Positions 11,318 to 33,406 of a stretch of DNA of 64,000 bases are shown one piece after another. The stretch is from the NCBI RefSeq assembly GCF_001704295.1, contig NZ_CP012334.1, forward strand, positions 2,554,084 through 2,618,083, given 5' to 3'. The DNA is from Bordetella sp. H567 (GTDB taxonomy: Bacteria; Pseudomonadota; Gammaproteobacteria; Burkholderiales; Burkholderiaceae_B). The first letter of the stretch is position 1, and each line of letters starts with the position of its first letter. Below the pieces are notes generated by a model. The model saw nothing but the letters and a program-made list of their open reading frames with translations. It was not told the origin of the DNA and did no database searches. The translations under genes were made by a program, and so were the position numbers.

Positions 11318-11345
11318 CCGCCACCGCGCATCGCAGGAGTCCACC

Positions 11346-12182: not shown

Positions 12183-12235
12183 GATGTGATAGACCAGCTT
12201 CATGCGACCAGTGGCGCTTGCGCCTGGAGATCGAG

Positions 12236-13075: not shown

Positions 13076-13112
13076 GAACGGGGTCGGCGGTGGACAACGC
13101 AAGGAGCGAACG

Positions 13113-14153: not shown

Positions 14154-14180
14154 ATAGACCGCGAAGCGAAGGGATGAAGC

Positions 14181-14886: not shown

Positions 14887-15402
14887 CTATACCGGATACA
14901 CCAGGTCATTCGCCAGGATTTCGGTGTCGTAGATCACCTGGCGCTGCTTCAGTTTCAGTGCGCCGTCGACGCGGGTGAAGACGTCGTGGTAGAAGCCCGC
15001 CAGGTGCAGCGTGGTGGGGCCTTCCACCAGGGTCTGCATCAGCAGGAAGGACGACTGCGCTTCGATTCCCTGTTCCGATTCTTCCAGCACGCGGGTATTC
15101 GTCACCAGGTGCCGCATATAGCGCGGCGCGAACATCTGCGTGCGTGAGATGGCCACGGCGCGGTCGTGCATCATGTCGCGGCCTTCGGCGTAGACCAGGC
15201 CGACCAGCATCCCGCGTTCGGCGTTTTCGCGCGCGGTGACCCGGTACAGGCCGTCCTCGATGAAGAAATCCGGCCAGCTTTCGATCTGGTTGGCGTCCAG
15301 CACGGCGCAATAGTCGGCGTGAAACTCTTCGATTTCCTGGCGCAGGGCGATGGCGCGCGCCGGGTCGATGCGGCGAGAAACGTACGCAAAATTCGTTTTC
15401 AT
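14887..15402 (-). CDS. 6-hydroxypicolinate 3-monooxygenase, Rieske oxygenase beta subunit (PicB)
   Basis: A 171-residue small subunit of a ring-hydroxylating oxygenase, NTF2/SnoaL fold. EIEEFHADYCAVLD near the N-terminus, then FFIEDGLYRVTARENAERG and the Arg/His-rich RDMMHDRAVA are characteristic. The subunit is structural and supports the alpha3beta3 hexamer. The ATG at 15402 is used; the upstream frame has no homology. It is the last gene of the minus-strand ferredoxin-reductase-alpha-beta operon, the order seen for picB4B3B2B1 in A. faecalis. It is separated from the alpha gene by a 95-bp gap containing a partial hairpin repeat. Confidence 0.85.
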   Translation of the reverse strand: MKTNFAYVSRRIDPARAIALRQEIEEFHADYCAVLDANQIESWPDFFIEDGLYRVTARENAERGMLVGLVYAEGRDMMHDRAVAISRTQMFAPRYMRHLVTNTRVLEESEQGIEAQSSFLLMQTLVEGPTTLHLAGFYHDVFTRVDGALKLKQRQVIYDTEILANDLVYPV

Positions 15403-15430
15403 CTCAGTGGTCCATTGCGCTGTGCGCCAC

Positions 15431-15490
15431 GTGCATCGCAAGAAACGGGTATGGCTGGATGGGGGAAGCGCGCAGCGCTTCGGGGATGGG
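15431..15490 (+). repeat. Triple-hairpin intergenic repeat, internally deleted copy
   Basis: CGCAAGAAACGGGT plus GGGGGAAGCGCGCAGCGCTT match the left part and right hairpin of the 51784-51890 element, but the middle two hairpins are missing. It lies between the oxygenase alpha and beta genes. Confidence 0.65.
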
Positions 15491-15497
15491 TTTCATC

Positions 15498-16787: not shown

Positions 16788-16821
16788 GTAGGCTCCTTGC
16801 GGTATGCGTGGGCGCCGAGGG

Positions 16822-18102
16822 TCAAGCCGGCGCGGCGGCCTGCTGGCAGGCCTTGATCCAGGGTTTCAGGGCGGCGCTCGCATCGGCGAACCCCGCGGGG
16901 TCGATGCGGGTACCGCGCTCGAACAACACGCGCATCTGGCGCAGGTCCGCCGCCGCGTTCACCGCGACACCATGCACGGGCAGGCCGTCGCGATGGCCCA
17001 GCCAGATCAGCCTGGGCGCCTGCGCGCCCGGTTCGGCGTCGCCGCGGCAGGTATAGACGAGGTCGCCGTCCGGCATGCCGAGCATCTGGATATTGCAGCC
17101 GAACTGGTCGGTCCAGAACCACGGATAGGGCGGGGCCGGAGGCTCGGCATCCAGCATCGCGGCAGCCGCCACCCGTGCCTGCTCGTTGGCGTTCTGCCAC
17201 GATTCGAGCCGCGCATGGCGCCCCAGGAAGTCGCGGTGCTGGCTGGCGCAGTCGCCGATCGCCAGGATGTCCGGGTCCGAACTGCGGCAGCAGGCGTCCA
17301 CCCGTATGCCGCCGTTATGCGGATCGATCTCCAGGCCAGCCGCGCGCGCCAGCGTGACCTCCGGTTGCAGGCCGATCGCCACCACGATGGCGTCCGCGGG
17401 CAGGGTTTCCCCACTATCCAGTACCAGCCCGGCGGGTGTGCGTCCGTCGGCCTCGCACGCCACGGAGGCGATGCGGGCGCCCAGGCGCAGGCGGGCGCCC
17501 GAGGCCGCCGCGCGCGCCGCCAGCCAGCGCGAAAACGGCGCGGGCAGGGCATTGGGCAGCAGGCGTTGCGCGCTCTCGATGACGGCGACCTCGGCGCCGC
17601 TCGCCAGCGCCGTGGAGGCGACCTCCAGGCCGAGGAAGCCGCCGCCCACCACGACAACGCGGGCGCCGGCGCGCAGGCATGCCCGCAATCCACGCGCATC
17701 GTCCAGCGTTCGCACATAGTGCACCTTGGGCGTGCCGCGCGGCAGGGCGGGAAGCTCTCGTGCCTGGCCGCCCGTGGCCAATAGGCAGCGGTCGTAGGCC
17801 AGCACCGTACCGTCCGCCAGGCGGATCTCGCGCCGCGCGCGATCCAGGGCCAGCGCCTCGATGCCGCGCATCAGCCGTATATCCTGCTCGGCATAGAAGG
17901 TATGGGGATGAATGGCCGCGGCGTGTTCGGCGTCCGCGTCGCGCAACACCGCCTTGGACAGCGGGGGGCGTTCGTAGGGCGCGTGCGGTTCGCGGCCGAT
18001 CAGCGTCAACGGTCCGGTATAGCCCAGCGCGCGCAGGGCATTCGCCGCCATGGCCCCGCCCTGGCCGGCGCCGACGATCACGATGGATGCGGGGGCGGCC
18101 AT
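16822..18102 (-). CDS. FAD-dependent ferredoxin reductase of the Rieske oxygenase system
   Basis: A 426-residue flavoprotein passing electrons from NAD(P)H to the Rieske ferredoxin. It has an N-terminal FAD site VIVGAGQGGAMAANALRALG, a central NAD(P)H site VVVVGGGFLGLEVA, the second FAD motif DILAIGDCA, and a C-terminal reductase domain with FWTDQFGCNIQMLG. The real start is the ATG at 18102; a longer frame on this strand runs into the ferredoxin gene but is not homologous. The gap to the ferredoxin stop is only 4 bp, indicating cotranscription. This is the BphA4/PuR-type reductase expected for a three-component system. Confidence 0.9.
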   Translation of the reverse strand: MAAPASIVIVGAGQGGAMAANALRALGYTGPLTLIGREPHAPYERPPLSKAVLRDADAEHAAAIHPHTFYAEQDIRLMRGIEALALDRARREIRLADGTVLAYDRCLLATGGQARELPALPRGTPKVHYVRTLDDARGLRACLRAGARVVVVGGGFLGLEVASTALASGAEVAVIESAQRLLPNALPAPFSRWLAARAAASGARLRLGARIASVACEADGRTPAGLVLDSGETLPADAIVVAIGLQPEVTLARAAGLEIDPHNGGIRVDACCRSSDPDILAIGDCASQHRDFLGRHARLESWQNANEQARVAAAAMLDAEPPAPPYPWFWTDQFGCNIQMLGMPDGDLVYTCRGDAEPGAQAPRLIWLGHRDGLPVHGVAVNAAADLRQMRVLFERGTRIDPAGFADASAALKPWIKACQQAAAPA

Positions 18103-18106
18103 GGGA

Positions 18107-18418
18107 TCACCTGGAAACGTCGGCCAGTATGTCACTGCCTTCGACCTTGACCGGATACACGCGGATGTCGCTGATGGCCGGCGCGCACAGGACCTTGCCC
18201 GTGCGGATATCGAAGCGGGCCTGATGCAGGGGGCATTCGATGCAGCCGTCTTCCAGGTAGCCCTCCGACAGCAGCGCATACGCGTGCGTGCACACGTTGT
18301 CCGATACGAAGAATTCGCCCGCACTGCGATACAGCGCCAGCTGTTTGCCGCCGGCTTCCACGGCCATGACCTCGTCGTCTTCCAATGCATCGGTCGCGGC
18401 GATTCGGGTCCAGTTCAT
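18107..18418 (-). CDS. Rieske [2Fe-2S] ferredoxin of the oxygenase system
   Basis: A 103-residue soluble Rieske ferredoxin. Cluster ligands are C43, H45 (VCTHAYALL) and C62, H65 (ECPLHQARF). It shuttles electrons from the reductase to the oxygenase. It is the first gene of the minus-strand picB-type operon; the ATG at 18418 is 11-44 bp from two PicR operator copies. Its first 20 residues (NWTRIAATDALEDDEV) match standard ferredoxin starts, so longer upstream frames are rejected. Confidence 0.9.
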   Translation of the reverse strand: MNWTRIAATDALEDDEVMAVEAGGKQLALYRSAGEFFVSDNVCTHAYALLSEGYLEDGCIECPLHQARFDIRTGKVLCAPAISDIRVYPVKVEGSDILADVSR

Positions 18419-18734: not shown

Positions 18735-18794
18735 CGGTTTTTTTCGTACATTAATCCGTGCTCGCGCCGCACCCCAGAATCTAGGAGCAGAGTT

Positions 18795-19898
18795 ATGCAA
18801 CGACGCCGTTTCCTTACACAGGCCGCGGGTGCCGCGGGCGCGGGCCTGGCCGCCGTCGCCGCGCCCGCGGTCGCGCAATCGAACCCCTCCGTGCGCTGGC
18901 GCATGTCCACCAGCTGGCCCAAGAGCCTGGACACCATCTACGGTTCGGCGGACGAGTTCTGCAAGCGCGTTGGTCAATTGACGGACGGAAAGTTCGAAAT
19001 ACGTGCTTTTCCCGGTGGCGAAATCGTTCCCTCCGCGCAGAACATGGACGCCGTGAGCAACGGCACGGTGGAATGCAACCATGTCCTCAGCACCGCGTAT
19101 ATCGGCAAGAACACCGCCTTGACATTCGACACCGGCCTGTCCTTCGGGCTGAACGCGCGCCAGCACAATGCCTGGATCCACTACGGGGGAGGCATGGAGC
19201 AGCTGCGCGCGCTCTACAAGAAGTACAACATCGTGAACCACGTCTGCGGCAACGTGGGCGTGCAGATGGGCGGCTGGTACCGCAAGGAAATCAAGTCGGT
19301 GGCGGACTTGAAGGGCCTGAACATGCGCATCGGCGGCATCGGCGGCATGGTGCTGTCCAAGCTCGGCGCGATTCCGCAGCAGATCCCGCCCGGCGATATC
19401 TATCCGGCGCTGGAAAAGGGCACGATAGACGCGGCGGAGTGGATAGGCCCGTACGATGACGCCAAGCTGGGCTTCAACAAGGTCGCGCCCTTCTATTATT
19501 CGCCGGGGTGGTTCGAGGGCAGCGCGTCGATCACCACCATGGTGCACGACAAGGCGTGGGAAGCACTTCCTGCCGCGTACAAGGCCGCCTACGAATGCGC
19601 GGCCGGCGAACAGACGATGCGCATGCTGGCCAACTACGATGCGCGCAATCCGCAGGCGCTGCGCCAGCTGATCGCCGGCGGCGCCAAGGTGCGCTACTTC
19701 CCCAAGGAAGTGATGGACGCGGTGTACAAGGCCTCGCAGGAGCTGTGGGACGAGCTGTCGGCCAATAATCCGGATTTCAAGGCGCTTTATCCGGGATGGA
19801 AGAAGTTCCAGCAGGATGAGGCCGGCTGGTTCCGGGTCGCGGAAAGCGCCTTGGACAACTATACGTTCGCCGAGGTGACGCGGGCGCAGTCCAAGTAA
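18795..19898 (+). CDS. TRAP transporter substrate-binding protein (DctP family; picT1-like)
   Basis: A 367-residue periplasmic solute receptor of the TRAP type. The signal peptide MQRRRFLTQAAGAAG contains a twin-arginine RRxFL motif, so Tat export is likely. The mature protein shows RWRMSTSWPKSLDTIYGSA, LKGLNMRIGGIGGMVLSKLG with the conserved ligand arginine region, and the GDIYPALEKGTIDAAEWIGP helix typical of TakP-like receptors for organic acids. In A. faecalis the matching operon starts with a TRAP receptor (picT1) before the picolinate dehydrogenase. The matching membrane subunits are encoded separately at 27131 and 27768, after the hydroxylase and an ABC transporter. Picolinate as ligand is inferred. 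Confidence 0.9.
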   Translation: MQRRRFLTQAAGAAGAGLAAVAAPAVAQSNPSVRWRMSTSWPKSLDTIYGSADEFCKRVGQLTDGKFEIRAFPGGEIVPSAQNMDAVSNGTVECNHVLSTAYIGKNTALTFDTGLSFGLNARQHNAWIHYGGGMEQLRALYKKYNIVNHVCGNVGVQMGGWYRKEIKSVADLKGLNMRIGGIGGMVLSKLGAIPQQIPPGDIYPALEKGTIDAAEWIGPYDDAKLGFNKVAPFYYSPGWFEGSASITTMVHDKAWEALPAAYKAAYECAAGEQTMRMLANYDARNPQALRQLIAGGAKVRYFPKEVMDAVYKASQELWDELSANNPDFKALYPGWKKFQQDEAGWFRVAESALDNYTFAEVTRAQSK

Positions 19899-19916: not shown

Positions 19917-22325
19917 ATGACGATGGAACACGGCGGGCCCGCCGGCGCGCGCAAGGCCGAAGGCGTGGGGGCGCGGGTCCCGCGCAAGGAAGACGCGCGC
20001 CATCTGCACGGCAAGGGCAATTTCGTCGCCGACATGGCGATGCCGGGATTGTCCGAGGTGGCGTTCCTGCGCAGTCCGCTGGCGCATGCGCGCATCGGCG
20101 CGGTGCGCGTGGACGCCAGCGTGGCCGGCTGTGTCGCGCTGCGTGCCGACATGGCCGACTGCAGGGACATCGTCGCCGATTCGACGCTACCCACCTACCA
20201 GTCATCGGCCCAGCCGCCGCTGGCGGCCGGCAAGGTGCGCTTCGTCGGGGAGCCGGTGGCCATGGCCTTCGCGCCCACTCGGGCAGAGGCCGAGGACAGT
20301 ATCGAGCTGCTCGACGTCGACTACGAAGACCTGCCCGTATATGCCGATGTGTTTTCCGCGCAGGCCGCCAGCGCCGATCTCGTGCACGCACAGTGGAAGG
20401 ACAATGTCTTCGTGACGTTGACGGCCGACAAGGACTTCGACGCCCATGCCGCGCAGGCGGAAGTCGTCGTCAAGCGCAATATGCGGCTGGCGCGCCAGTG
20501 CATGGTGCCGATGGAGGGCAAGGCCGTCCTGGCGTACTGGGATCATCAGGCCGACCAGCTGGTGGTGTACAGCGCCACCCAGGTGCCCCACATGATCCGC
20601 ACCATCCTGGCGGAATGCCTGGGGCTGGACCAGGGGCGCGTGCGGGTGATTTCTCCGGACGTGGGCGGTGCGTTCGGCTACAAGTGCGTGCTGCAGCAGG
20701 AAGAGCTGTGCATCGCCTGGCTGGCCAAGACGTACAAGCGCCCCTTCCGCTTCATCGAGGACCGCCGCGAGCACTTGACCGCCGGGGCGAATTCCCGCGA
20801 ACACCATTACGAAATGACGGCCTACGCCGACCGGCGCGGCAAGCTGCTCGCGCTGGACGCACGCGTGACGGTCGACGGTGGCGCGTATTCGGTCTGGCCT
20901 TTCACGATCGGCCTGGAGCCCGGCCAGGCGGTGGGCAACCTGCCAGGGCCCTATGCCTTTCGCGGCTATCGTTGCGTGACCCGCGCGGTGGCCACCAATA
21001 AGCCGGGCTTCGTGCCGTATCGCGGCGTGGCGCGTACGGGCGTGTGCTTCGCCATCGAGCTCATGATGGACGCGATCGCCCGCGAAGTGGGCCGCGAACC
21101 CTGGGACGTCCGCCTGGAGAACCTGGTCCAGCCGGAGCAGATGCCCTACGTGAACGTGACCAACAAGCACCTGGACAGCGGCGACTATCCGGCCAGCCTG
21201 CGCAAGGCGCTGGAGATGATAGACGCCCCGGGCGTGCGCGCGCGCCAGCAACGCGGCGAGACCGATGGACGGCTGATCGGGTTGGGCGTGGCAACCTACA
21301 CCGAACAGGCGGCACATGGCACGTCCGTCTTCGCCACTTGGGGCACGCCGGTGATCCCCGGCTTCGACCAGGCCACGGCGCGCATCACGCCGGACGGCGG
21401 CCTGGAAGTCCGGGTCGGCGTGCATTCGCACGGGCAAGGCATGGAGACGACCTTCGCCCAGATCGCCAACGAGATACTGGGCATCCCCGTGGCGCGCATC
21501 AAGGTACTGCACGGCGATACGGGCCAGACGCCGTATTCCACCGGCACCTACGCGTCGCGTTCGCTGGTCATGTCGGGTGGCGCGGTCTCGCAGGCTTGCA
21601 AGCGCCTGTTGCCACGCGTGCTGCACATCGCGGCGCATCTGCTGCGCACGCCCGTCGAACAGCTTTCCGTGGGCGACGGCCGCTTCGCCGCGAACACCGC
21701 GCAGGACACCCGCTCGGTGTCCATGGGCGAGGTCGCCGATGCCTGGTACCTGCGGCCCCATCTGTTGCCGCCGGATGTCGATCCCCTGGGCCTGGAAGTG
21801 ACGGTGGGCTATAAGCCCAAGGTCGACACGGGCTGCTTCACTTATGCCAGCCAGGCGGCCACGGTGGCCGTGGATCCGGCCACCGGCGGGGTGGAGATCC
21901 TGGACTACGTCGTCGTGGAAGATTGCGGCACGATGATCAATCCCATGGTCGTGGAGGGCCAGACCATCGGCGGCATCGCGCAGGGCATCGGCACGGCGTT
22001 CTATGAAGAGACGCCGTACGACGCCAACGGCCAGCCGCTGGCCTCGACGCTGGCCGACTACATGTTGCCCGGCGCCACCGAAGTCCCCCACATGCGTATC
22101 CATCATTTCGAGACACCGTCGCCGCATACGGAGTTCGGCGCCAAGGGCATGGGCGAGGGCGGCGCGATCGCGCCGCCGGCGGTGCTGTTCAACGCGGTGA
22201 ACGATGCGCTGCGCGCGCTCGGCGCGGCCGAACTGGCGCAAACCCCGCTTACCCCTTACCGCGTGCTGCAGGCGATCGCGCAAGGCCGGCGGTGCGAAGA
22301 GAGCGGACAGGCCAGGGCGGCGTGA
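19917..22325 (+). CDS. Picolinate 6-dehydrogenase (PicA-like), molybdopterin-binding large subunit
   Basis: An 802-residue xanthine dehydrogenase-family subunit carrying the molybdenum centre. It starts with the hammerhead domain (VPRKEDARHLHGKGNFVADM). The molybdopterin-binding part includes GGAFGYK, REHLTAGANSREHHYEM, PYRGVARTGVC and the C-terminal GAKGMGEGG, whose E747 is the expected catalytic base next to molybdenum. Predicted reaction: hydroxylation of picolinate at C6 using water. ATG at 19917 is chosen, with 19923 as an alternative. It is followed 7 bp later by the FAD subunit. No cofactor-insertion chaperone (XdhC/MobA type) is present in the window. Confidence 0.87.
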   Translation: MTMEHGGPAGARKAEGVGARVPRKEDARHLHGKGNFVADMAMPGLSEVAFLRSPLAHARIGAVRVDASVAGCVALRADMADCRDIVADSTLPTYQSSAQPPLAAGKVRFVGEPVAMAFAPTRAEAEDSIELLDVDYEDLPVYADVFSAQAASADLVHAQWKDNVFVTLTADKDFDAHAAQAEVVVKRNMRLARQCMVPMEGKAVLAYWDHQADQLVVYSATQVPHMIRTILAECLGLDQGRVRVISPDVGGAFGYKCVLQQEELCIAWLAKTYKRPFRFIEDRREHLTAGANSREHHYEMTAYADRRGKLLALDARVTVDGGAYSVWPFTIGLEPGQAVGNLPGPYAFRGYRCVTRAVATNKPGFVPYRGVARTGVCFAIELMMDAIAREVGREPWDVRLENLVQPEQMPYVNVTNKHLDSGDYPASLRKALEMIDAPGVRARQQRGETDGRLIGLGVATYTEQAAHGTSVFATWGTPVIPGFDQATARITPDGGLEVRVGVHSHGQGMETTFAQIANEILGIPVARIKVLHGDTGQTPYSTGTYASRSLVMSGGAVSQACKRLLPRVLHIAAHLLRTPVEQLSVGDGRFAANTAQDTRSVSMGEVADAWYLRPHLLPPDVDPLGLEVTVGYKPKVDTGCFTYASQAATVAVDPATGGVEILDYVVVEDCGTMINPMVVEGQTIGGIAQGIGTAFYEETPYDANGQPLASTLADYMLPGATEVPHMRIHHFETPSPHTEFGAKGMGEGGAIAPPAVLFNAVNDALRALGAAELAQTPLTPYRVLQAIAQGRRCEESGQARAA

Positions 22326-22332
22326 GGCATCC

Positions 22333-23175
22333 ATGAAAGCGGCGAAATTCGACTATATCCGGCCGGAGTCGGTGGAGCAGGCGCTGGGCGCCCTGCGCCA
22401 GCATGCCGGCCAGGCCAAGCTGATGGCGGGCGGCCAGTCGCTCGGGCCCATGCTCAACTTGCGGCTGGCCCGGCCGGCGATGGTGATCGATATCTCGGGC
22501 CTGCAAGCCTTGCGCGGCGTGACTCGGGACGGCGATACGGTGCGCATCGGCGCGGCCGTGACGCATGCGGAGATCGAGGACGGCGTGCATGCGGCCTTGC
22601 GTGATTCCCCCATGCGCGAGGTGGCCGCCGGCATTGCCTACCGCGCGGTGCGCAACCGCGGCACCCTGGGCGGCAGCCTGGCACACGCCGATCCGGCGGC
22701 CGACTGGGTGGTGGCGATGGCGGCGCTGGGCGCGCGCATCGAGGTGGCCGGGCCGCAAGGCCTGCGCCACGTCGAGGCGGATGCCTTGATGCAGGGCGCC
22801 TACGCCACCGCCATACAGGAAGACGAACTGATACAGGCCGTGCACGTGCCGGCGGGCGGCGCGCGCGCCCGGTGGGGCTACTACAAGTTCTGCCGCAAGA
22901 CCGGCGAGTTCGCCGAGGCCAGCTGCGCCGCCTGGTTCGACCCGGCCAGCGGGCAGGCGCGCATCGCGCTGGGGGCCCTGGATGGGCCGCCGCGCCTGCT
23001 TCCGGGCCTGGCCGCGCGCGTTGCGCGCGACGGTGCGGCGGCATTGGATCCCACGGCGATCGCGCGCGAAGTGGCGGACGCCATGCCGGACAAGGATGAA
23101 CCCCATCGCCAGCTGCACGCGGCCGCGCTTGCCCGCTGCCTGGCGCGGGCCACGGGCCAAGGACCGCAACCATGA
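22333..23175 (+). CDS. Picolinate 6-dehydrogenase (PicA-like), FAD-binding medium subunit
   Basis: A 280-residue CoxM/CutM-type flavoprotein subunit. FAD-binding motifs are LMAGGQSLGPMLNLRLARP (about residues 30-48) and RNRGTLGGSLAHADPAADW (about residues 108-126). The C-terminal CO dehydrogenase flavoprotein domain has KTGEFAEASCAAWF. It passes electrons from the iron-sulfur subunit onward. Its TGA overlaps the ATG of the next gene (ATGA at 23172), so subunits are translated in step. The ATG at 22333 is just after the large-subunit stop; an earlier frame start inside the large subunit is rejected. Confidence 0.9.
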   Translation: MKAAKFDYIRPESVEQALGALRQHAGQAKLMAGGQSLGPMLNLRLARPAMVIDISGLQALRGVTRDGDTVRIGAAVTHAEIEDGVHAALRDSPMREVAAGIAYRAVRNRGTLGGSLAHADPAADWVVAMAALGARIEVAGPQGLRHVEADALMQGAYATAIQEDELIQAVHVPAGGARARWGYYKFCRKTGEFAEASCAAWFDPASGQARIALGALDGPPRLLPGLAARVARDGAAALDPTAIAREVADAMPDKDEPHRQLHAAALARCLARATGQGPQP

Positions 23176-24410
23176 CGCAAGTGACGATGGAAGTGAACGG
23201 CCGCCGCGTGGCCGAGGACGCGCCGGCCCGCATGCACCTGGGCGATTTCCTGCGCGACCGCCTGCGCCTGACCGGCACGCACCTGGGCTGCGAACACGGG
23301 GTCTGCGGGGCCTGCACGGTGCTGCTGGACGGCGCGCCGGTGCGTTCCTGCATCTCGTACGCGGTCGCCTGCGAAGGGCGCCAGGTAACCACGATAGAGG
23401 GCTATGACGGCGATCCGGTCATGCGCCGCCTGCGCGAGGCATTCACGCGCCATCACGCCTTGCAGTGCGGCTATTGCACGCCGGGCATGCTGGCGACGGC
23501 GCGCGATATCGTCCTGCGCCTGCCGGATGCCGACGAGGCGCGGGTACGCGTGGAGCTCTCCGGCAATCTGTGCCGCTGCACCGGCTATATGGGCATCGTG
23601 GCGGCGGTGATGTCGGTGCTTGCCGAGCTGCGCGAGGCTTGCGATGCCCAGGTGGACGGCTTGCGCGCGGCGGCGCGACGCGGCGAAGGCGGCGCGCCCG
23701 CGTCGCCAACGCCGGCCGCGTTTGAGGCCTTCACGGCGACGGCATCCGGCGCGGCCGGCGCGCCGGTGGCATCGGCGGCCTCGACCGGGCAGGGCGCGGA
23801 CGCCGTGTCGATGCCGGCGGGCGTCGCAAGCGGCACGCCGGCGGCAGCCGGCGCCGGCAAGACCAGCCAGATCGACGGCATGTTCGACGTGCCGTTTCCC
23901 GCGGATCGCGTGTGGGCCTTCATGGCCGATCTGCCGGCCGTGGCCGCGTGCCTGCCGGGCGCCTCCATCCAGGAACAGCAGGGCGATCGCGTCAAGGGCA
24001 CGATATCGGTCAAATTCGGCCCGATGCGCGCGGCCTTCAATGGGGCCGCGCGGCTGGACCGGGACGACGCGGCGATGCGCGCGGTCTTCCGCGGGGCGGG
24101 GCAGGATACGCTCAGCCGCTCACGGGCCAATGGCGACATCGTCTATCGCGTCGAGGACGCCGGGGCCGGGGCGGCGCGTGTTCATGTCGAAATGGCCTAC
24201 TCGCTACAGGGCCCGCTGGCGCAGTTCTCGCGTTCCGGACTGGTGCAGGATTTCGTGCGGCGCATGATCGCGGACTTCGGCCGCAACGTCGCCGCGCGCA
24301 TGTCCGGCACGGCGGCCGTGCAGCCGGCGCAGGCTTCGTTCAATGCATCGGGCATGTTCTTCCAGGTGCTCTGGACGCGCATCAAGCGCTGGCTGGGACG
24401 CGGCGGCTGA
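23172..24410 (+). CDS. Picolinate 6-dehydrogenase [2Fe-2S] small subunit fused to a CoxG domain
   Basis: A 412-residue two-part protein. Residues 1-155 are a standard small subunit with two clusters: C40, C45, C48, C60 (plant-ferredoxin type) and C99, C102, C134, C136. An Ala/Gly/Pro-rich linker follows (about 165-230). Residues 232-378 are a CoxG/SRPBCC domain with PADRVWAFMADLPAVAACLPG. The C-terminus ends in a basic amphipathic helix, MFFQVLWTRIKRWLGRGG. Small subunits of this family are usually about 155-170 residues, so the fusion is unusual. CoxG proteins tether CO dehydrogenase to the membrane and are linked to quinone delivery, so electrons may go to the quinone pool. That role is inference. 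Confidence 0.88.
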   Translation: MTQVTMEVNGRRVAEDAPARMHLGDFLRDRLRLTGTHLGCEHGVCGACTVLLDGAPVRSCISYAVACEGRQVTTIEGYDGDPVMRRLREAFTRHHALQCGYCTPGMLATARDIVLRLPDADEARVRVELSGNLCRCTGYMGIVAAVMSVLAELREACDAQVDGLRAAARRGEGGAPASPTPAAFEAFTATASGAAGAPVASAASTGQGADAVSMPAGVASGTPAAAGAGKTSQIDGMFDVPFPADRVWAFMADLPAVAACLPGASIQEQQGDRVKGTISVKFGPMRAAFNGAARLDRDDAAMRAVFRGAGQDTLSRSRANGDIVYRVEDAGAGAARVHVEMAYSLQGPLAQFSRSGLVQDFVRRMIADFGRNVAARMSGTAAVQPAQASFNASGMFFQVLWTRIKRWLGRGG

Positions 24411-24495: not shown

Positions 24496-25530
24496 ATGCG
24501 GACGAGCAAGGCATATGGATGGCGCCGGTGGCTGGCCGGCGCGGCCACCCTGGCCATGTGGGCCGCGGCCGCCGTCGCCGCGGCGCAGCCCGCGACGCCA
24601 CTGAAGGTGCGCCTGGACTGGACGCCGTGGGGCGTGCAGGCGCCTTTCCATCTGGCGCAGCAGAAGGGCTGGTACAAGCAGGCCGGCCTGGACGTGACGC
24701 TGGAGGACGGCAACGGGTCGGTGACGACGGTGCAGATCGTCGGTTCGAGCGACGCCTTCGACGTGGGGCACGCGGCGCTTGCGTCCATGATGATCGCCCG
24801 CGACAAGGGCCTGCCGGTCAAGGCGGTGGCCGTATTCGCGCGGCAAAGCGATATCGGCCTGCTGGTGCCGGCCGACTCGGGCATCACGGGGCCGAGCGGG
24901 CTGAAGGGACGCAAGGTCGCGTATACGGCCGGTTCGCTGGAAGCGCCGTTCATCGACGCTTTCCTGGCGGCGGGCAAGCTCAAGCGCGGGGACGTCGAGC
25001 TCGTCAATGTCGACGCCGCGAGCAAGGCGTCCACCTACGCCGTCGGCCGGGCCGACGCGGCGTTTTCGACCATCCCGTTCTTCCTGCCCGTGGTGTCCCA
25101 GAAGCGTCCGTCCACCGCCGTGCGCTTCGCGGACTTCGGCCTGAACATGCCCAGCTTCGGCCTGTTCGCCAGCGAGGCCAAGCTGAAGACCCGCGGCGAC
25201 GCGATCGCGCGTTTCGCCAGCGTGACGGCACGGGCATGGGAATACATCCATGCCGGGCACGAGGACGAGGCCGTCGCTGCCATCCTGGCGCAGCGTCCGC
25301 AGGCGCGCCTGGATCCCAAGGTGCTGCGCGGCCAGATCGATGCCCTGAAGGCCTATTTCGGTACGCCGCCGTCGGGCGGCCGCCTGGGCGTGCCGGTGCC
25401 GGACGATTGGGTGCAGGCGGTGAAGACGCTGTCCTCGGTGGGACTGATCGGCGCGGAGGCGGATCCGGCCGGCTTCTATGCCACCGGGATGGTGCATCCC
25501 GAACGCTACGACGCCATGGTGGGACGATGA
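24496..25530 (+). CDS. NMT1/SsuA-type ABC transporter substrate-binding protein
   Basis: A 344-residue periplasmic receptor. The signal peptide covers residues 1-30 (ending AAAAVAAAQ). The mature N-terminus VRLDWTPWGVQAPFHLAQQKGWYKQAGLDV is the classic NMT1/THI5-like start, and the domain-linking VAYTAGSLEAPFIDAFL follows. These receptors serve sulfonates, taurine, pyrimidine precursors and aromatic acids. AAGGGGA precedes the ATG at 24496. It lies 85 bp after the CoxG-fused subunit and overlaps the ATPase gene by 4 bp. Its place inside the pic locus suggests uptake of picolinate or a related pyridine acid, which is an inference. Confidence 0.9.
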   Translation: MRTSKAYGWRRWLAGAATLAMWAAAAVAAAQPATPLKVRLDWTPWGVQAPFHLAQQKGWYKQAGLDVTLEDGNGSVTTVQIVGSSDAFDVGHAALASMMIARDKGLPVKAVAVFARQSDIGLLVPADSGITGPSGLKGRKVAYTAGSLEAPFIDAFLAAGKLKRGDVELVNVDAASKASTYAVGRADAAFSTIPFFLPVVSQKRPSTAVRFADFGLNMPSFGLFASEAKLKTRGDAIARFASVTARAWEYIHAGHEDEAVAAILAQRPQARLDPKVLRGQIDALKAYFGTPPSGGRLGVPVPDDWVQAVKTLSSVGLIGAEADPAGFYATGMVHPERYDAMVGR

Positions 25531-26312
25531 GCAATTGGGCCGTGTCGGCGCGCGATGTCAGCAAGCAGTATCCCGGCGAGCGGGGCGTGCGGGCGCTGGA
25601 TTCGATATCGGTGGACCTGCCGCCCGGCCGCTTCGTCAGCATCCTGGGGCCCAGCGGCTGCGGGAAAAGCACCTTTCTGCGCTGTGTCGCGGGGCTGGAA
25701 ACCATCAGCGCGGGCGAGCTGCGCGTCGAAGGCTGGCCCGTGAAGGGCCCGCCGGACGGCATCGGCATGGTGTTCCAGCGCGACGCCTTGCTGGACTGGC
25801 GCAGCATCCGCCGCAATGTGCTGCTTCCGATCGAATTCGCGCACAAGCCGGTGTCCGGCTATGCCGCCAAGGCGCGCGCGCTGCTGGCGCTGACCGGTCT
25901 GCAGGATTTCGCCGATTGCTATCCCCATGAGCTTTCGGGCGGCATGCGCCAGCGCGCGGCCATCTGCCGGGCGCTGATAGACGACCCGCGCCTGCTGCTG
26001 ATGGATGAACCTTTCGGCGCGCTGGACGCCCTGACGCGCGACCAGATGAATGTCGAGCTTCAGCGCATCTGGATGGAAACCCGCAACACGGTGCTGTTCG
26101 TGACCCACGGCATCGCCGAGGCCGTGTTCCTCGGCGACACGGTCCTGGTGTTCTCGCCGCGCCCCGGACGCATCGTGGAAACCCTGAGGATCGATCTGCC
26201 GCGGCCGCGCCCGCTGGCCGTGCGCGAAACCGCGGAATTCGGCGCCTATGTGCGCCATATCCGCGACCTGTTCCAGGACATGGGCCTGATCGACGAGCGG
26301 AGCCACGCATGA
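25527..26312 (+). CDS. ABC transporter ATP-binding protein (SsuB/TauB type)
   Basis: A 261-residue ATPase with Walker A GPSGCGKST (around residue 41), Q-loop VFQRDALLDW, signature LSGGMRQR, Walker B LLLMDEPFGALDALT and the switch histidine in VTHGIAEAVFL. Start and stop overlap the neighbouring receptor and permease by ATGA junctions (25527 and 26309), so the three are coupled. It energises import by the adjoining receptor and permease. Confidence 0.93.
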   Translation: MSNWAVSARDVSKQYPGERGVRALDSISVDLPPGRFVSILGPSGCGKSTFLRCVAGLETISAGELRVEGWPVKGPPDGIGMVFQRDALLDWRSIRRNVLLPIEFAHKPVSGYAAKARALLALTGLQDFADCYPHELSGGMRQRAAICRALIDDPRLLLMDEPFGALDALTRDQMNVELQRIWMETRNTVLFVTHGIAEAVFLGDTVLVFSPRPGRIVETLRIDLPRPRPLAVRETAEFGAYVRHIRDLFQDMGLIDERSHA

Positions 26313-27082
26313 AGTCCTCATCCCGCACGCTGCTGCACGGCGCGGCCGGCGCCGCCTCCCTGGTGCTGTTCCTGGCCGTGTGGGAAGCGGCGGCGCGGCT
26401 GTTGCACATCAAGCCCATCATGCTGCCGCTGCCCACGCAGATCGGCCAGGAGCTTGCGCATGATGCGGGGTGGTATGCCGGGCAGGCGGCCTATACCTTG
26501 ATGACCACGCTGGCGGGCTTCGCGCTGTCCGTGCTGGGCGGCGTGGCGGTCGCGGTCATGCTGGTGGGCTCGCGATGGTTCGAAAGCGTGCTGCAGCCCC
26601 TGATCGTGGCCTTGAACAGCGTGCCCAAGGTCGCCGTGGCGCCGCTCTTCGTCATCTGGCTGGGCACCGGTGCCGAGCCGAAGATCGCCATTGCCTTCCT
26701 GATCGCCGTGTTCGCCGTCATCGTGGATACCGTGCACGGGCTGCGGTCGGTGCCGCGCGACATCCTGGACCTGGGACGCGTGTTGAAGGGGTCGCCGCGC
26801 GATTTCTTTTTCAAGGTGCGCCTGCCGTGCGCGCTGCCGTCCATCCTGGCAGGCATGAAGGTCGCCATTTCGCTGGCGCTGGTCGGCGCGATCGTCGGGG
26901 AATTCGTCTCCTCGCAAAGCGGCCTGGGCTACGTGATCATGACGGCGCAGGGCACCTTCGATACCGTGCGCGTGTTCGCCGCGCTGTTCGTGCTGGCCTT
27001 CATCGGCCTGGCGCTGTTCGGTGCCTTGGCATGGGTGGAACGCAAGGCGACGCCATGGCGGCGCCATGGCGAAGCGAACTGA
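26309..27082 (+). CDS. ABC transporter permease (SsuC/TauC type)
   Basis: A 257-residue inner-membrane permease with about six transmembrane helices, beginning AGAASLVLFLAVWEAAARL. The coupling-loop EAA-type motif is seen around DLGRVLKGSPRDFFFKVRLP, followed by ALPSILAGMKVAISLALVGA. It completes the receptor-ATPase-permease set and ends 48 bp before the TRAP small permease. The dimeric permease would import a small anion; the specific ligand depends on the receptor. Confidence 0.92.
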   Translation: MKSSSRTLLHGAAGAASLVLFLAVWEAAARLLHIKPIMLPLPTQIGQELAHDAGWYAGQAAYTLMTTLAGFALSVLGGVAVAVMLVGSRWFESVLQPLIVALNSVPKVAVAPLFVIWLGTGAEPKIAIAFLIAVFAVIVDTVHGLRSVPRDILDLGRVLKGSPRDFFFKVRLPCALPSILAGMKVAISLALVGAIVGEFVSSQSGLGYVIMTAQGTFDTVRVFAALFVLAFIGLALFGALAWVERKATPWRRHGEAN

Positions 27083-27130
27083 CCGCGGCGGATGAACGCG
27101 GCAAAAAGTGGATGGCACAAGGGGAAAGCA

Positions 27131-27766
27131 ATGCAGGGATGGATGGCCTTGTCGCGTCTGATCGACGCGATCAACCTGCGCGTGGGCCGCGCCGTGACAT
27201 GGGTGACCTTGCTGGTGGTGCTGGTCAGCGCCGGCAACGCGTTGGTGCGCAAGGTCTTGCACACCAGCTCGAATGCGTGGCTGGAATTGCAGTGGTATAT
27301 GTTCGGGGCCATGTTCCTGCTGGCCTCGGGCTATACGCTGCTGAAGAACGAGCACGTGCGGGTGGATATCCTGTCCTCGCGCCTGTCGCGGCGCAAGCAG
27401 ATCTGGATCGAGGTCTTCGGCGTGCTGTTCTTCCTGCTGCCGGCCTGCATGCTGATCCTGGCGCTGTCCTGGCCGGTCTTCACGGAGTCGTGGCTGACCC
27501 ACGAGCAGTCGTCGAATTCGGGCGGGCTGGTGCGCTGGCCGGTGAAGCTGCTGATCCCGGCGGGCTTCGCGCTGCTGGTGCTAGCGGGCGTCTCGCACCT
27601 GATCAAATGCGTGGGCTTTCTGCTGGGCCGCGGCCCAGATCCGCTGCGGCGCGAGGGCGTGCGCTCGGCCGAGGAAGAACTGGCCGCGGAAATCGCCCGC
27701 GAAGCCCAGGCCCGCGAAGCGGCCGCGCTGGCCGCGGCGGCGGCGCCGCGCGACGGGGGGCGTTGA
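27131..27766 (+). CDS. TRAP transporter small permease (DctQ family)
   Basis: A 211-residue four-helix membrane protein of the DctQ type: helices near residues 17-37, 48-66, 91-110 and 138-158. The characteristic NALVRKVLHTSSNAWLELQW segment after helix one and the LKNEHVRVDIL motif confirm the family. A charged, alanine-rich tail (EEELAAEIAREAQAREAAA) extends the C-terminus. The ATG at 27131 follows GGGGAAAGCA; the upstream in-frame ATG at 27092 adds a non-conserved leader. It works with the DctM protein 1 bp downstream and presumably the receptor at 18795. Confidence 0.9.
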   Translation: MQGWMALSRLIDAINLRVGRAVTWVTLLVVLVSAGNALVRKVLHTSSNAWLELQWYMFGAMFLLASGYTLLKNEHVRVDILSSRLSRRKQIWIEVFGVLFFLLPACMLILALSWPVFTESWLTHEQSSNSGGLVRWPVKLLIPAGFALLVLAGVSHLIKCVGFLLGRGPDPLRREGVRSAEEELAAEIAREAQAREAAALAAAAAPRDGGR

Positions 27767-27767
27767 G

Positions 27768-29435
27768 ATGGACTTCTTCATCGCCAACCTGGCGCCCATC
27801 ATGTTCGCCACCCTGGTGGTGTTCCTGCTGCTGGGTTTTCCGGTGGCCTTCGCGCTGGCGGCCAACGGCATCCTGTACGGCCTGATCGGCATCGAGCTGG
27901 GCCTGCTCACGCCGGCGCTGTTCCAGGCGCTGCCGCAGCGGGTGTTCGGCATCATCTCCAACGACACGCTGCTGGCGGTGCCGTTCTTCACGCTGATGGG
28001 ACTGGTGCTGGAGCGCTCGGGCATGGCCGAGGACCTGCTGGAGACCATCGGGCAGCTGTTCGGCACGGTCCGGGGCGGCCTGGCCTTCGCGGTGGTGTTC
28101 GTCGGCGCCATGCTGGCGGCCACCACCGGCGTGGTCTCGGCCTCGGTGATCTCCATGGGGCTGATCTCGCTGCCCATCATGCTGCGCTACGGCTACGACC
28201 GGCGCCTGGCCAGCGGCGTGATCGCCGCCTCCGGCACGCTGTCGCAGATCATCCCGCCCTCGCTGGTACTGATCATCCTGGCCGACCAGCTGGGCCGCTC
28301 GATCGGCGACATGTACCGGGCGGCGATGGTGCCGGGCTTCGTGCTGGCCGGGCTGTACATCCTGTACGTGATCATCATGTGCGTGGTCAGGCCCGCCTCG
28401 GCGCCAGCCTTGCCCGAGGAGGCGCGGCGGTTTCGCGAGACCAATGGCACGCGCGGGGGCCGCTCGCTGCTGGTGCTGATGGCGATCTCCGTGGCGGTGG
28501 CCTGGGCGCTGGGCCGGTGGATGGAGAACGACACCGCGCCGGCCGACGAGCGCATCGTGCTCAGCCTGCTGTTGTGGGGCCTGTCCGCCTTCGTGATCGC
28601 CATCGTCAACAAGGGACTGCGCCTGCGGCTGCTGTCGGCGCTGGCCGAGCGGGTGACCTTCGTCATGATCCCGCCGTTGTTCCTGATCTTCCTGGTGCTG
28701 GGCACCATCTTCATCGGCGTGGCCACGCCCACCGAGGGCGGGGCGATGGGCGCGGTGGGGGCCATCGCCATGGCGCTGGCGCGCAAGCGGCTGACGCTGG
28801 ACCTCATGCGCCAGGCGATGGACACCACGACCAAGCTGTCCTGCTTCGTGGTCTTCATCCTGGTGGGTTCCACGGTGTTTGGCCTGACCTTTCGCGGCGT
28901 GAACGGCGATCTGTGGGTCGAACACCTGCTGACCGGGCTGCCGGGCGGGCAGTGGGGCTTCCTGATCGTGGTCAGCGTGCTGACCTTCGTGCTGGCCTTC
29001 TTCCTGGACTTCTTCGAGCTGGCCTTCATCATCGTGCCGCTGCTCGGGCCGGTGGCCGAAAAGATGGGCATCGACCTGATCTGGTTCGGGGTGATCCTGG
29101 CGGTGAACATGCAGACGTCCTTCATGCATCCGCCCTTCGGTTTCGCGCTGTTCTACCTGCGCTCGGTGGCGCCCAAGGATGCCTACCGGGACAAGGTCAC
29201 GGGGCGGACCATCGCGCCGGTGACCACGGGGCAGATCTATCGCGGATCCATTCCCTTCATCGTCATCCAGCTGCTGATGGTGGCCACGGTGATGCTGGTG
29301 CCCGCGATGGTGATGCACTACAAGGGCGACCAGTCCCAGGTCGACCCCGCGTCGGTGAAGATCGACGTGCAGGGCGGCTACGGCGATAGCGTGTACGGCG
29401 GCGGGGCGGATGACGGCGGGGCGGTGTTCAAGTAG
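27768..29435 (+). CDS. TRAP transporter large permease (DctM family)
   Basis: A 555-residue, roughly 12-14-helix sodium-coupled permease. Family motifs include the N-terminal PIMFATLVVFLLLGFPVAFALA, VPFFTLMGLVLERSGMAEDL, AASGTLSQIIPPSLVLIILA and, late, NMQTSFMHPPFGFALFYLR. It is about 120 residues longer than a typical DctM because of a central loop with extra helices (residues 210-290) and a hydrophilic tail. This longer variant is common beside TakP-type receptors. It is the last gene of the operon started at 18684; no strong terminator was seen after it. Confidence 0.9.
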   Translation: MDFFIANLAPIMFATLVVFLLLGFPVAFALAANGILYGLIGIELGLLTPALFQALPQRVFGIISNDTLLAVPFFTLMGLVLERSGMAEDLLETIGQLFGTVRGGLAFAVVFVGAMLAATTGVVSASVISMGLISLPIMLRYGYDRRLASGVIAASGTLSQIIPPSLVLIILADQLGRSIGDMYRAAMVPGFVLAGLYILYVIIMCVVRPASAPALPEEARRFRETNGTRGGRSLLVLMAISVAVAWALGRWMENDTAPADERIVLSLLLWGLSAFVIAIVNKGLRLRLLSALAERVTFVMIPPLFLIFLVLGTIFIGVATPTEGGAMGAVGAIAMALARKRLTLDLMRQAMDTTTKLSCFVVFILVGSTVFGLTFRGVNGDLWVEHLLTGLPGGQWGFLIVVSVLTFVLAFFLDFFELAFIIVPLLGPVAEKMGIDLIWFGVILAVNMQTSFMHPPFGFALFYLRSVAPKDAYRDKVTGRTIAPVTTGQIYRGSIPFIVIQLLMVATVMLVPAMVMHYKGDQSQVDPASVKIDVQGGYGDSVYGGGADDGGAVFK

Positions 29436-29609: not shown

Positions 29610-32534
29610 ATGGAGCACGGGCACCGCACGCAGCGCGAGAATCTCGAAGTCAAGAACACCACCTGTTATATGTGCGCGTGCCGCTGCGGCATCCGCGTCC
29701 ATTTGCGCGACGGCGAAGTCCGCTATATCGACGGCAATCCTGAACATCCGCTGAATCAGGGTGTCATTTGCGCCAAGGGCTCGTCCGGGATCATGAAGCA
29801 GTATTCGCCGGCCCGCCTGACGCAGCCCTTGCGCCGCAAGCCGGGATCCGAGCGGGGCACGGCGGAATTCGAGCCGATTTCCTGGGAAGAGGCCTTGTCC
29901 CAGCTGGAGACCCGCCTGGCCCACCTGCGGGCCACGGATCCGCGCCGCTTTGCGCTATTCACCGGCCGCGACCAGATGCAGGCGCTGACCGGCCTGTTCG
30001 CCAAGCAGTTCGGCACGCCCAATTACGCCGCGCATGGCGGCTTCTGCTCGGCCAACATGGCGGCCGGGATGATCTACACGATAGGCGGGTCGTTCTGGGA
30101 GTTCGGCGGCCCGGACCTGGACCGCGCCCGGCTGTTCCTGATGATAGGCACGGCCGAGGATCATCATTCCAACCCGCTGAAGATCGCGATATCCAAGTTC
30201 AAGCGCGCCGGCGGCCGCTTCATCGCCATCAATCCCGTGCGCACCGGCTACGCCGCCGTCGCCGACGAATGGATCCCCATCCGGCCCGGCACCGATGGCG
30301 CGCTGTTCATGGCCCTGATCCACGAACTGATCGCCCAGGATGCCTACGACCACGAGTTCGTCTCCCGCTATACCAATGCGGGCGAATTGATCGACCTGCG
30401 CGAGGACAGCGAAACGTCCGGCCTGTTCGTCCGGGACGCCGGCAGCCCGGAAATCAATGCCTTGTTCCCGCAGAACCGCATGTGGTGGGACAAGCACAGC
30501 AACCGCCCGGTGGTGAATCACGCGGCGGGTGCCGAACCGGCGCTGGACGGACAATACATGCTGGACGACGGCACGCCCGTCACGCCGTCCTTTACCCGCC
30601 TGCGCGAACGCGTTGCATCCTGTACCCCGGAATGGGCGGCCGCAATCACCGGCATCCCGGCCGAGACCATCCGGCGCCTGGCCGGCGAGTTGATCCAGGT
30701 CTCGCGCGAGCAGAAGATCGAGCTGCCGATCCGCTGGACGGACGCCTGGGGCGTGACCCATGAATCGGTACGCGGCGCACCCATCGCCTTCCACGCCATG
30801 CGCGGACTGGCGGCCCATTCCAATGGTTTCCAGAGCATCCGGGCGATGTCCATCCTGATGACGCTGCTGGGCACCATCGATACCCCGGGCGGCTTTCGCC
30901 ACAAGGCGCCGTATCCGCGCGCCGTGCCGCCGTCGGCCAAGCCGCCCAACAAGGCCAGCGACGTGCAGCCGAATACGCCGCTGCCCAACGGCCCGCTGGG
31001 TTGGCCGGCCGCGCCGGAGGACCTGTTCATCGACGAACAGGGCGAGCCGGTGCGCATCGACAAGGCTTTCTCCTGGGAGTACCCGCTGGCCGTGCATGGC
31101 CTGATGCACAGCGTCATCACGAATGCCTGGCGCGGCGATCCCTATCCCATCGATACGCTGTTGATTTTCATGGCCAACATGGCGTGGAATTCGTCGATGA
31201 ACACGGTCGAGACGCGCAGGATGCTGACCGACAAGGGCGAGGATGGGGAATACAAGATCCCCTTCCTGGTCGTGTGCGATGCGTTCCAGTCGGAGATGAC
31301 GGCGTTCGCGGACCTGATCCTGCCGGATACGACGTACCTGGAACGGCACGATGCCATGTCGATGCTGGATCGTCCCATCTCCGAATTCGACGGTCCCGTG
31401 GACGCCGTGCGTATCCCCGTGGTGCCGCCGACAGGCGATTGCCGCCCCTTCCAGGACGTGCTGGTCGAGCTCGCGGGACGCCTGAAGTTTCCCGCCTTCA
31501 CGCGGCCGGACGGCGAGCGAAAGTTCAGCAGCTACAAGGACTTCGTCATCAACTTCCAGACAGCGCCCGATTCCGGCGTCGGCTTCCTGATCGGCTGGCG
31601 CGGCAAGGACGGCGACAAGGCCCTGGTCGGCGAGCCCAATCCCCAGCAGTGGGAGCGGTACGCCGAGAACAACTGCTTCTACCACCATGTCCTGCCCGAG
31701 GACATGCAGTACATGCGCAACTGCAACGGCCCCTACCTGAAGTGGTCGGTGGAAACGGGCATGCGCAAGTTCGGCACGCCCATCGTGATGCAGCTGTACT
31801 CCGAGGTGATGCAGAAATTCCGCCTGGCCGCGCAGGGCAAGACGCGCGGGCGCCAGCCGCCCGATCACCTGCGCGCGCGCGTCGAACGCTATTTCGATCC
31901 CGTACCTTTCTGGTACGAACCCATCGAGAACAGCGTTACCGACATGCAGGCCTTCCCGCTGGCCGCCGTGACGCAGCGTCCCATGGCGATGTACCACTCC
32001 TGGGATTCGCAGAATGCCTGGTTGCGGCAGATCCATGGCGAAAACTATCTGATGGTCAATCCCCGGACCGCGGGCGCGCAAGGCATCGAGGACGGCGGCT
32101 GGATTTACGTCGAATCGCCGTGGGGCAAGGTGCGCTGCATGGCGCGCTACAGCGAAGCGGTCGAACCGGGCACGGTATGGACCTGGAACGCCATCGGCAA
32201 GGCGGCCGGCGCCTGGAACCTGGGCCCGGACGCCAATGAGTCGCGCCGCGGCTTCCTGCTGAACCACCTGATCACCGACGAGCTGCCGGGCGGCACGGAC
32301 GGCGTGCCGGGCCGCGTTTCCAATTCCGACCCCATCACCGGCCAGGCTGGGTGGTACGACCTGCGCGTGCGCATCTATCCGGCCGAGGCCGATGCGGATT
32401 TCACGCTGCCGCAGTTCGCGGCGATGAAGCCGCTGCCCGGCTCGCTGAATGTCTTGACCCGCGTGGTGCAGACGTATTTCGCCGGCAAGGGCGAATTCCT
32501 TGCCCGCTTGCGCCGCGCCGCGCCCAACAAGTAA
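29610..32534 (+). CDS. Molybdopterin oxidoreductase catalytic subunit (SoeA-like)
   Basis: A 974-residue DMSO-reductase-family enzyme with bis-MGD molybdenum. The N-terminal [4Fe-4S] ligands are C19, C22, C26 and C54 (CYMCACRCG and VICAKG). C146 in HGGFCSANMAAG is the expected Mo-coordinating cysteine. No Tat or Sec signal is visible, so it is cytoplasmic, which matches SoeABC sulfite dehydrogenases and differs from periplasmic PsrA/PhsA enzymes. AAGGAGG six bases upstream fixes ATG 29610. The next genes encode the iron-sulfur and NrfD/DmsC-like membrane subunits. The upstream 174-bp gap is AT-rich with repeated ATAAC motifs, probably its promoter. Substrate (sulfite) is inferred, not shown. 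Confidence 0.85.
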   Translation: MEHGHRTQRENLEVKNTTCYMCACRCGIRVHLRDGEVRYIDGNPEHPLNQGVICAKGSSGIMKQYSPARLTQPLRRKPGSERGTAEFEPISWEEALSQLETRLAHLRATDPRRFALFTGRDQMQALTGLFAKQFGTPNYAAHGGFCSANMAAGMIYTIGGSFWEFGGPDLDRARLFLMIGTAEDHHSNPLKIAISKFKRAGGRFIAINPVRTGYAAVADEWIPIRPGTDGALFMALIHELIAQDAYDHEFVSRYTNAGELIDLREDSETSGLFVRDAGSPEINALFPQNRMWWDKHSNRPVVNHAAGAEPALDGQYMLDDGTPVTPSFTRLRERVASCTPEWAAAITGIPAETIRRLAGELIQVSREQKIELPIRWTDAWGVTHESVRGAPIAFHAMRGLAAHSNGFQSIRAMSILMTLLGTIDTPGGFRHKAPYPRAVPPSAKPPNKASDVQPNTPLPNGPLGWPAAPEDLFIDEQGEPVRIDKAFSWEYPLAVHGLMHSVITNAWRGDPYPIDTLLIFMANMAWNSSMNTVETRRMLTDKGEDGEYKIPFLVVCDAFQSEMTAFADLILPDTTYLERHDAMSMLDRPISEFDGPVDAVRIPVVPPTGDCRPFQDVLVELAGRLKFPAFTRPDGERKFSSYKDFVINFQTAPDSGVGFLIGWRGKDGDKALVGEPNPQQWERYAENNCFYHHVLPEDMQYMRNCNGPYLKWSVETGMRKFGTPIVMQLYSEVMQKFRLAAQGKTRGRQPPDHLRARVERYFDPVPFWYEPIENSVTDMQAFPLAAVTQRPMAMYHSWDSQNAWLRQIHGENYLMVNPRTAGAQGIEDGGWIYVESPWGKVRCMARYSEAVEPGTVWTWNAIGKAAGAWNLGPDANESRRGFLLNHLITDELPGGTDGVPGRVSNSDPITGQAGWYDLRVRIYPAEADADFTLPQFAAMKPLPGSLNVLTRVVQTYFAGKGEFLARLRRAAPNK

Positions 32535-32543
32535 GGAAACGAC

Positions 32544-33287: not shown

Positions 33288-33406
33288 TGTCCCGGCCGGG
33301 GTAGGGCAAGCAGGCAAGGATCCGCGGGGGTGTGCGGGTTGATCGTGATTAAGCGACGAGGGGCTTGCGCCCCAGACTCGACGTGTTTCAAGAACAAGGA
33401 GTTTCC

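Follow-up and report, generated by a model that had tools for sequence, protein, structure and literature searches.

CoxG is described in one source as a menaquinone-binding membrane protein that passes electrons to the quinone pool (PMC13240472, citing Kropp et al. 2025). According to the sections of PMC4240915 considered here, coxG mutants of Oligotropha carboxidovorans still grow on CO, with a generation time of 149 h versus 21 h, and the enzyme of the mutant, with 51% of the wild-type specific activity, had a low copper content, which leaves room for another role of CoxG. Neither of the two glycerol-3-phosphate dehydrogenases (G3PDHs) of Sulfolobus needed its CoxG to reduce quinones, and CoxG was assigned to anchoring and not to electron carrying by the authors, in the parts of their paper drawn on here (PMC11962113). 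In Ensifer, CoxG had already been suggested to anchor the 3-hydroxypyridine dehydrogenase; the association of CoxG with pyridine dehydrogenases is therefore not new. Among enzymes acting on pyridine carboxylates, PicA produces 6-hydroxypicolinate and PicB 3,6-dihydroxypicolinate, PicC decarboxylates, and PicD to PicG finish the route to fumarate (PMC10142695), and several nicotinate dehydrogenases are listed in a review as using cytochrome c (PMC10331938).

The window analysed here, a stretch of DNA of 64,000 nucleotides, contains a gene in which a [2Fe-2S] subunit and a CoxG domain are joined, with the following features.

10355 to 14816, forward strand: picC-, picG-, picE-, picD- and picF-like genes (fitting Pfam families for four of the five)
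14887 to 18418, reverse strand: Rieske oxygenase, picB-like, in four parts (beta, alpha, reductase and ferredoxin; Pfam)
19917 to 22325, forward strand: large molybdopterin subunit, CoxL-like and picA1-like (MoCoBD_1/2; best solved relative quinoline 2-oxidoreductase, 1t3q_B)
22324 to 23175, forward strand: FAD subunit, CoxM-like and picA2-like (FAD_binding_5, E 1.3e-47; 1ffu_C, E 3e-41)
23172 to 23636, forward strand: [2Fe-2S] small-subunit domain of the CoxS type, residues 1-155 (Fer2 and Fer2_2; fits 8uem chain C)
23637 to 23864, forward strand: poorly conserved linker rich in Ala, Pro, Ser and Thr, residues 156-231 (pLDDT <50 at 173-229; low conservation)
23865 to 24302, forward strand: CoxG/SRPBCC domain, residues 232-377, elsewhere given as 235-377 (PF06240; model; match to 8uds)
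24345 to 24398, forward strand: basic, hydrophobic C-terminal helix, residues 392-409, proposed membrane tail (low-confidence prediction; charge)

The fused gene (23172-24410, forward strand) encodes 412 amino acids in a single unbroken frame and lies directly downstream of the large and FAD subunit genes, its ATG start overlapping the 3' end of the latter. Fer2 was detected by Pfam at residues 7-60 and Fer2_2 at 74-146 (E 6.2e-24), and COXG (PF06240) at residues 236-377 with a score of 62.4 bits (cut-off 22.2; E 4.8e-17); the coordinates and domain order given in a preliminary description of this DNA, made without database searches, were correct, and its assignment of the C-terminal domain to CoxG was supported by this score and by the structural match described below. 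Eight cysteines (40, 45, 48, 60, 99, 102, 134 and 136), which correspond to the [2Fe-2S] cluster ligands of the family, were invariant across five aligned sequences. With Mo, FAD and 2x[2Fe-2S] subunits and the cluster cysteines present (Pfam; five sequences), the three-subunit enzyme is an LMS hydroxylase of the xanthine oxidase family.

In both domains the GC content by codon position was gene-like, with 0.87 and 0.86 at the third and 0.51 and 0.52 at the second position; it was unusual in the linker (second 0.78, third 0.89), consistent with its richness in Ala, Pro, Ser and Thr. Among 33 aligned sequences, 44 of the 143 columns of the CoxG domain were invariant, including all of 345-356 (LQGPLAQFSRSG); the linker (156-230) showed a mean commonest-residue frequency of 0.38, and the tail (392-409) had zero invariant columns. 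Five pairwise comparisons yielded dN/dS values of about 0.10-0.27 for the CoxG domain, about 0.3-0.8 for the linker and about 0.33-0.58 for the tail: both domains are under clear purifying selection, linker and tail far less so, and the tail is barely more constrained than the linker. An internal restart yielding free CoxG was rejected as not conserved, since a scan of the linker region and the first 10 residues of the CoxG domain in 52 Fe-S-CoxG fusions found an in-frame ATG in 21 and a Shine-Dalgarno-like stretch in four.

The full-length structural model was poor (mean pLDDT 65.1, pTM 0.45) and displayed the Fe-S domain, a disordered stretch at 173-229 (pLDDT <50), an SRPBCC-like domain and a helix at 392-407. 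Its best match in a PDB search was the Fe-S chain of the Mycobacterium smegmatis CO dehydrogenase (8uem), with the M. smegmatis CoxG (8uds) at rank 25, and the Fe-S part superposed onto 8uem chain C with a TM-score of 0.85 by target length. Residues 232-412 modelled alone reached a mean pLDDT of 81.7 (81-95 in the CoxG blocks) and retrieved 8uds first (TM 0.92 by target length, rmsd 1.6 A), which is also the best sequence match of the CoxG domain; this domain is predicted to have a Bet v 1/SRPBCC fold like that of the solved CoxG. The PDB title of 8uds includes the words 'minus lipid anchoring C-terminus', which refer to the same place as the tail of the fused protein.

The picolinate context proposed in the preliminary description was supported by the picC-, G-, E-, D- and F-like genes and the picB-like oxygenase listed above, among which the picD-like gene (13113-14153), without a match in the Pfam search, was assigned by its position and by a 67% identical Variovorax gene that carries the annotation 2,5-dihydroxypyridine 5,6-dioxygenase. 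A MarR regulator gene also lies to the left of the fused gene. Since the window holds the gene set of the pic pathway, we read the fused gene as picA3 in a cluster of this kind, encoding the small subunit of a Mo/2x[2Fe-2S]/FAD picolinate dehydrogenase whose substrate we infer from this context. A similar layout was found on a Variovorax boronicumulans plasmid, where the fused gene is annotated merely as a 2Fe-2S protein. Outside the window, at least two pic genes (at least 45% identity, within the fetched flanks) were present at 26 of 32 PicA-clade loci and none at the other six, and picB-like genes occurred at two of the 36 loci outside this clade. Loci L114 and L117, outside the PicA clade, carry picB-like genes together with an Fe-S-CoxG fusion. 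The neighbours of the fused gene differ elsewhere: in Sinorhizobium they are transhydrogenase genes, and in Methylobacterium and a Geminicoccaceae bacterium they are amidohydrolase and branched-chain ABC genes, indicating that the Fe-S-CoxG architecture is not limited to picolinate.

A function as CO dehydrogenase was rejected. The Cys of the yrcsfr motif in the active-site loop of the large subunit, which we take to be the Cu ligand of the Form I Mo-Cu CO dehydrogenase, is absent from the large subunit of the window, where yrgvar aligns with yrcsfr of 1ffu, and the scores against the NCBIfam CODH models were all under their cut-offs. Further genes around the cluster include an NMT1/SsuA-type ABC transporter (24496-27082) placed between the parts of a TRAP transporter (DctP at 18741-19898, DctQ and DctM at 27092-29435) and, right after the TRAP genes, a DMSO-reductase-family molybdoenzyme, a 4Fe-4S dicluster protein and a DmsC-like membrane subunit (29640-34348).

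The fused protein was searched in 268 genomes of the family of the window's organism. Matches at E<=1e-55 were obtained in 82 genomes (classes counted by hand). In 74 of them a single open frame held both halves: 65 of these matches were unbroken and full length, seven were in two pieces within the frame, and two were more distant, full-length or nearly so. The remaining eight comprised three matches cut by contig ends and five of the Fe-S half alone; a separate CoxG gene adjoined the Fe-S-only match in all four that were fetched, G256 being the fifth. Twelve genomes from a 398-genome sample of the phylum matched at the same threshold, 10 of them aligned across both domains, and the other two (G554 and G566) were found on closer inspection to be fused too. 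A scan for CoxG in 299 genomes of the phylum yielded 87 matches in 55 genomes, hand-counted as including 11 Fe-S-CoxG fusions and five large-subunit-CoxG fusions; the former were present in 11 of the 55 CoxG-bearing genomes. Four named records held the query at full length, and in each of 20 plasmid records 80% or more of it lay in one place. The single frame, the Pfam domains and the orthologues all support the fusion, which is a real, conserved, covalent variant of the known CoxG partnership.

To place the fusion among its relatives, 70 systems were classified as Fe-S-CoxG fused (n = 52, a chosen subset of the matches, fetched with flanks, mostly full-length and some nearly identical), separate CoxG (n = 14, including one with CoxG on the opposite strand), large-subunit-CoxG fused (n = 3) and without CoxG nearby (n = 1). 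The gene order L-M-S-G (large, FAD, Fe-S, CoxG) was shared by all 52 Fe-S fusions and by the nine unfused relatives of that group, in all nine of which the distance from the coxS stop to the candidate coxG start was -47 to +45 nt. The order M-S-L-G was observed in four other separate-CoxG systems and in the opposite-strand one, and LG-M-S in all three large-subunit fusions of the set; CoxG therefore seems to become attached to whichever subunit is encoded before it. Fusions to the large subunit were recorded at seven loci in total (L124, L134, L135, L200, L205, L206 and L208), among which L124 (7102-10188; about 1159101-1162187 of contig C1, G000) belongs to the genome of the window and carries a CoxL-CoxG fusion, an open frame of 1029 codons whose product has a basic tail (WWRRLLG). 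The unfused relatives L074 (5980-8753, Azospirillum) and L119 (4986-7815, Caballeronia) have amidase, DUF1116 and hpxZ genes as neighbours, a hint that the substrate may be an N-heterocycle or a ureide.

These gene orders also bear on whether fusing brought any benefit. The fusion could be a neutral by-product of abutting genes that works like the separate pair with no gain, an explanation that we regard as possible though doubtful. It is favoured by the L-M-S-G order common to fused and unfused relatives, and by a tree of the 70 large subunits (a quick search with no bootstraps and with long-branch warnings, its rows mostly picked from full-length matches) on which the fused label needs four changes, three of them inside the L-M-S-G group, so that the two states interchanged at least three times there; these changes may reflect repeated gain, or gain and splitting. 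All 33 PicA-clade rows of the same tree were fused, which argues against neutrality; the bias towards full-length rows is offset in that the 268-genome search would list unfused close relatives too, and four of the five Fe-S-only matches were placed on the tree, all outside the PicA clade. Because this explanation concerns the benefit of fusing and not the mechanism, the confidence given to it overlaps with that given to the mechanisms considered below.

By homology, the fused domain should anchor the picolinate dehydrogenase, deliver quinone to it, or both. We favour, with a probability of roughly 0.6, a reading in which the covalent CoxG would dock the enzyme on the membrane and deliver quinone, and electrons from FAD would pass to ubiquinone. 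A separate CoxG partner, as in the CO dehydrogenases and in close relatives of the picolinate enzyme, would have become the C-terminal domain of the small subunit; picolinate would be hydroxylated at Mo, and electrons would run from Mo through the [2Fe-2S] clusters to FAD; the tethered CoxG domain would take ubiquinone from the cytoplasmic membrane, offer it near the FAD subunit and return the quinol, while the C-terminal helix would keep the CoxG arm on the membrane. Ubiquinone is the main quinone in betaproteobacteria and, on that premise, would be the quinone involved. Nicotinate hydroxylase NicB carries cytochrome c, and the preliminary description saw CoxG as taking the place of that module; this suggestion fared poorly, because an enzyme with its own FAD subunit would release electrons from FAD as CO dehydrogenase does, and no obvious cytochrome replacement was apparent.

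Alternatively, the CoxG domain and tail may only hold the enzyme at the membrane, FAD meeting the quinone itself and the domain carrying none, which we consider unlikely. A precedent is the Sulfolobus acidocaldarius G3PDH, which in E. coli was found in the membrane fraction only with co-expressed CoxG, yet reduced quinones without it (in the parts of PMC11962113 consulted). The cavity-fold domain, however, is the conserved part of the fused protein, with its 44 invariant columns, whereas the tail varies, and the menaquinone binding ascribed to CoxG (see above) likewise points to more than anchoring.

The tail itself was compared across fused and free CoxGs. The preliminary description had it as a basic amphipathic helix; a helix at 392-409 was predicted in both models with low confidence, and the last 22 residues were net positive in all 52 Fe-S fusions (charge of at least 3 in 50), in keeping with the basic part of that wording. 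The hydrophobic moment exceeded that of the protein's own shuffles (p<=0.1) in only six of the 52 fusions and not in 46, so 'amphipathic' was dropped and 'basic and hydrophobic' is the safer term. In the first set, the stretch following CoxG measured 31-56 aa in the 52 Fe-S fusions, 21-22 aa in the three large-subunit fusions and 64-144 aa in the 14 separate CoxGs. An anchor-like tail (basic and hydrophobic, or TM-like) was present in 50/52 Fe-S fusions and 7/7 large-subunit fusions, that is 57/59 fusions overall, and in 14/14 separate CoxGs of the first set versus 16/69 free CoxGs of a wider sample; the rows are related and no probability is attached to these counts, only the last 30 residues were scored in the free set, and the domain end was measured slightly differently there from the fusion and first sets. 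The 299-genome scan had 71 unfused matches by hand count, and 69 made up the wider sample, with L001 and L006 omitted as genes of the first set, L005 in both sets and the Fe-S fusions not fetched anew. Forty of the 69 CoxGs were without a tail (<16 aa), and a tail is therefore not a general requirement of CoxG; these short ends also refute, as a rule, a leash swap in which the flexible stretch was moved. Tails of free-standing CoxGs (L143-L213) range from none to Trp/Lys-rich or transmembrane-like helices.

An improbable reading is that the SRPBCC domain binds the pyridine carboxylate substrate or product, or aids cofactor insertion, its fusion being unrelated to quinone. Many ligands are bound by SRPBCC/Bet v 1 folds (PMC2577659, in the part cited), and the low copper and 51% activity of the coxG-mutant enzyme could be read in this way; the authors of that study, in the sections considered, conclude that CoxG has no part in cluster assembly (PMC4240915), the closest match in both sequence and fold is the CoxG of CO dehydrogenase, and the retention of the domain amid differing neighbour genes argues against a substrate-specific role. 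Finally, a sequencing or assembly error joining two genes, which the preliminary description named as grounds for doubting the fusion, can be dismissed because orthologues share it, in one frame in 74 of the 82 matching genomes and in the four full-length and 20 plasmid records.

To our knowledge, the electron acceptor used in the cell by many aerobic N-heterocycle hydroxylases is poorly defined. Docking and quinone delivery by the covalent CoxG would connect the picolinate-type family with the quinone route that has recently been put forward for CO dehydrogenases, and the fused gene offers a simple test object, in which truncation of a single gene replaces reconstitution from two proteins. 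The fusion suggests, without proving it, an enzyme built for membrane docking, and the fact that CoxG occurs fused to either subunit, Fe-S or large, argues for a working partnership with Mo hydroxylases that is not confined to CO oxidation. More broadly, we tentatively propose, as an idea with the odds somewhat against it, that a large family of N-heterocycle Mo hydroxylases acting on picolinate and other substrates may be self-contained quinone reducers, in which a CoxG arm on a leash of 55-90 residues would swing between the bilayer and the FAD subunit, having been joined separately to the Fe-S and large subunits according to which gene preceded coxG. No description of the fused Fe-S-CoxG form was found in the literature searched; the main pic papers lie outside that search, and the fused form may well be in print already.

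Compared with described systems, the enzyme of the window resembles in its parts the M. smegmatis CoxLMS and CoxG (8uem, 8uds), whose large, FAD, Fe-S and CoxG components are all homologous, although CoxG is there a separate chain, the substrate is CO, and the active-site Cys is replaced in the window's enzyme. The CoxG of O. carboxidovorans, which is likewise associated with bringing an LMS Mo hydroxylase to the membrane, is a separate protein of 205 aa, again with CO as substrate (PMC4240915, in part). In S. acidocaldarius a CoxG homologue also brings a soluble dehydrogenase to the membrane, but the G3PDHs are unrelated FAD enzymes and their CoxG is separate (PMC11962113, in part). HpdA, the 3-hydroxypyridine dehydrogenase of Ensifer adhaerens HP1, shares pyridine degradation and a CoxG homologue proposed as membrane anchor; compared here by description only, it is encoded by a four-component gene cluster, as the title of the original work has it, so that CoxG is presumably a separate gene (cited in PMC11962113). 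The CoxL-CoxG fusion at L124 likewise joins CoxG and a basic tail to a Mo hydroxylase subunit, but, unlike PicA3, it involves the large subunit and is placed by the tree at a distance from the PicA clade. The PicA enzymes of Alcaligenes faecalis JQ135 and Bordetella bronchiseptica RB50, also compared by description only, belong to the same type of cluster as that of the window, with picA1A2A3 and picB1B2B3B4 (PMC10142695, in the part cited).
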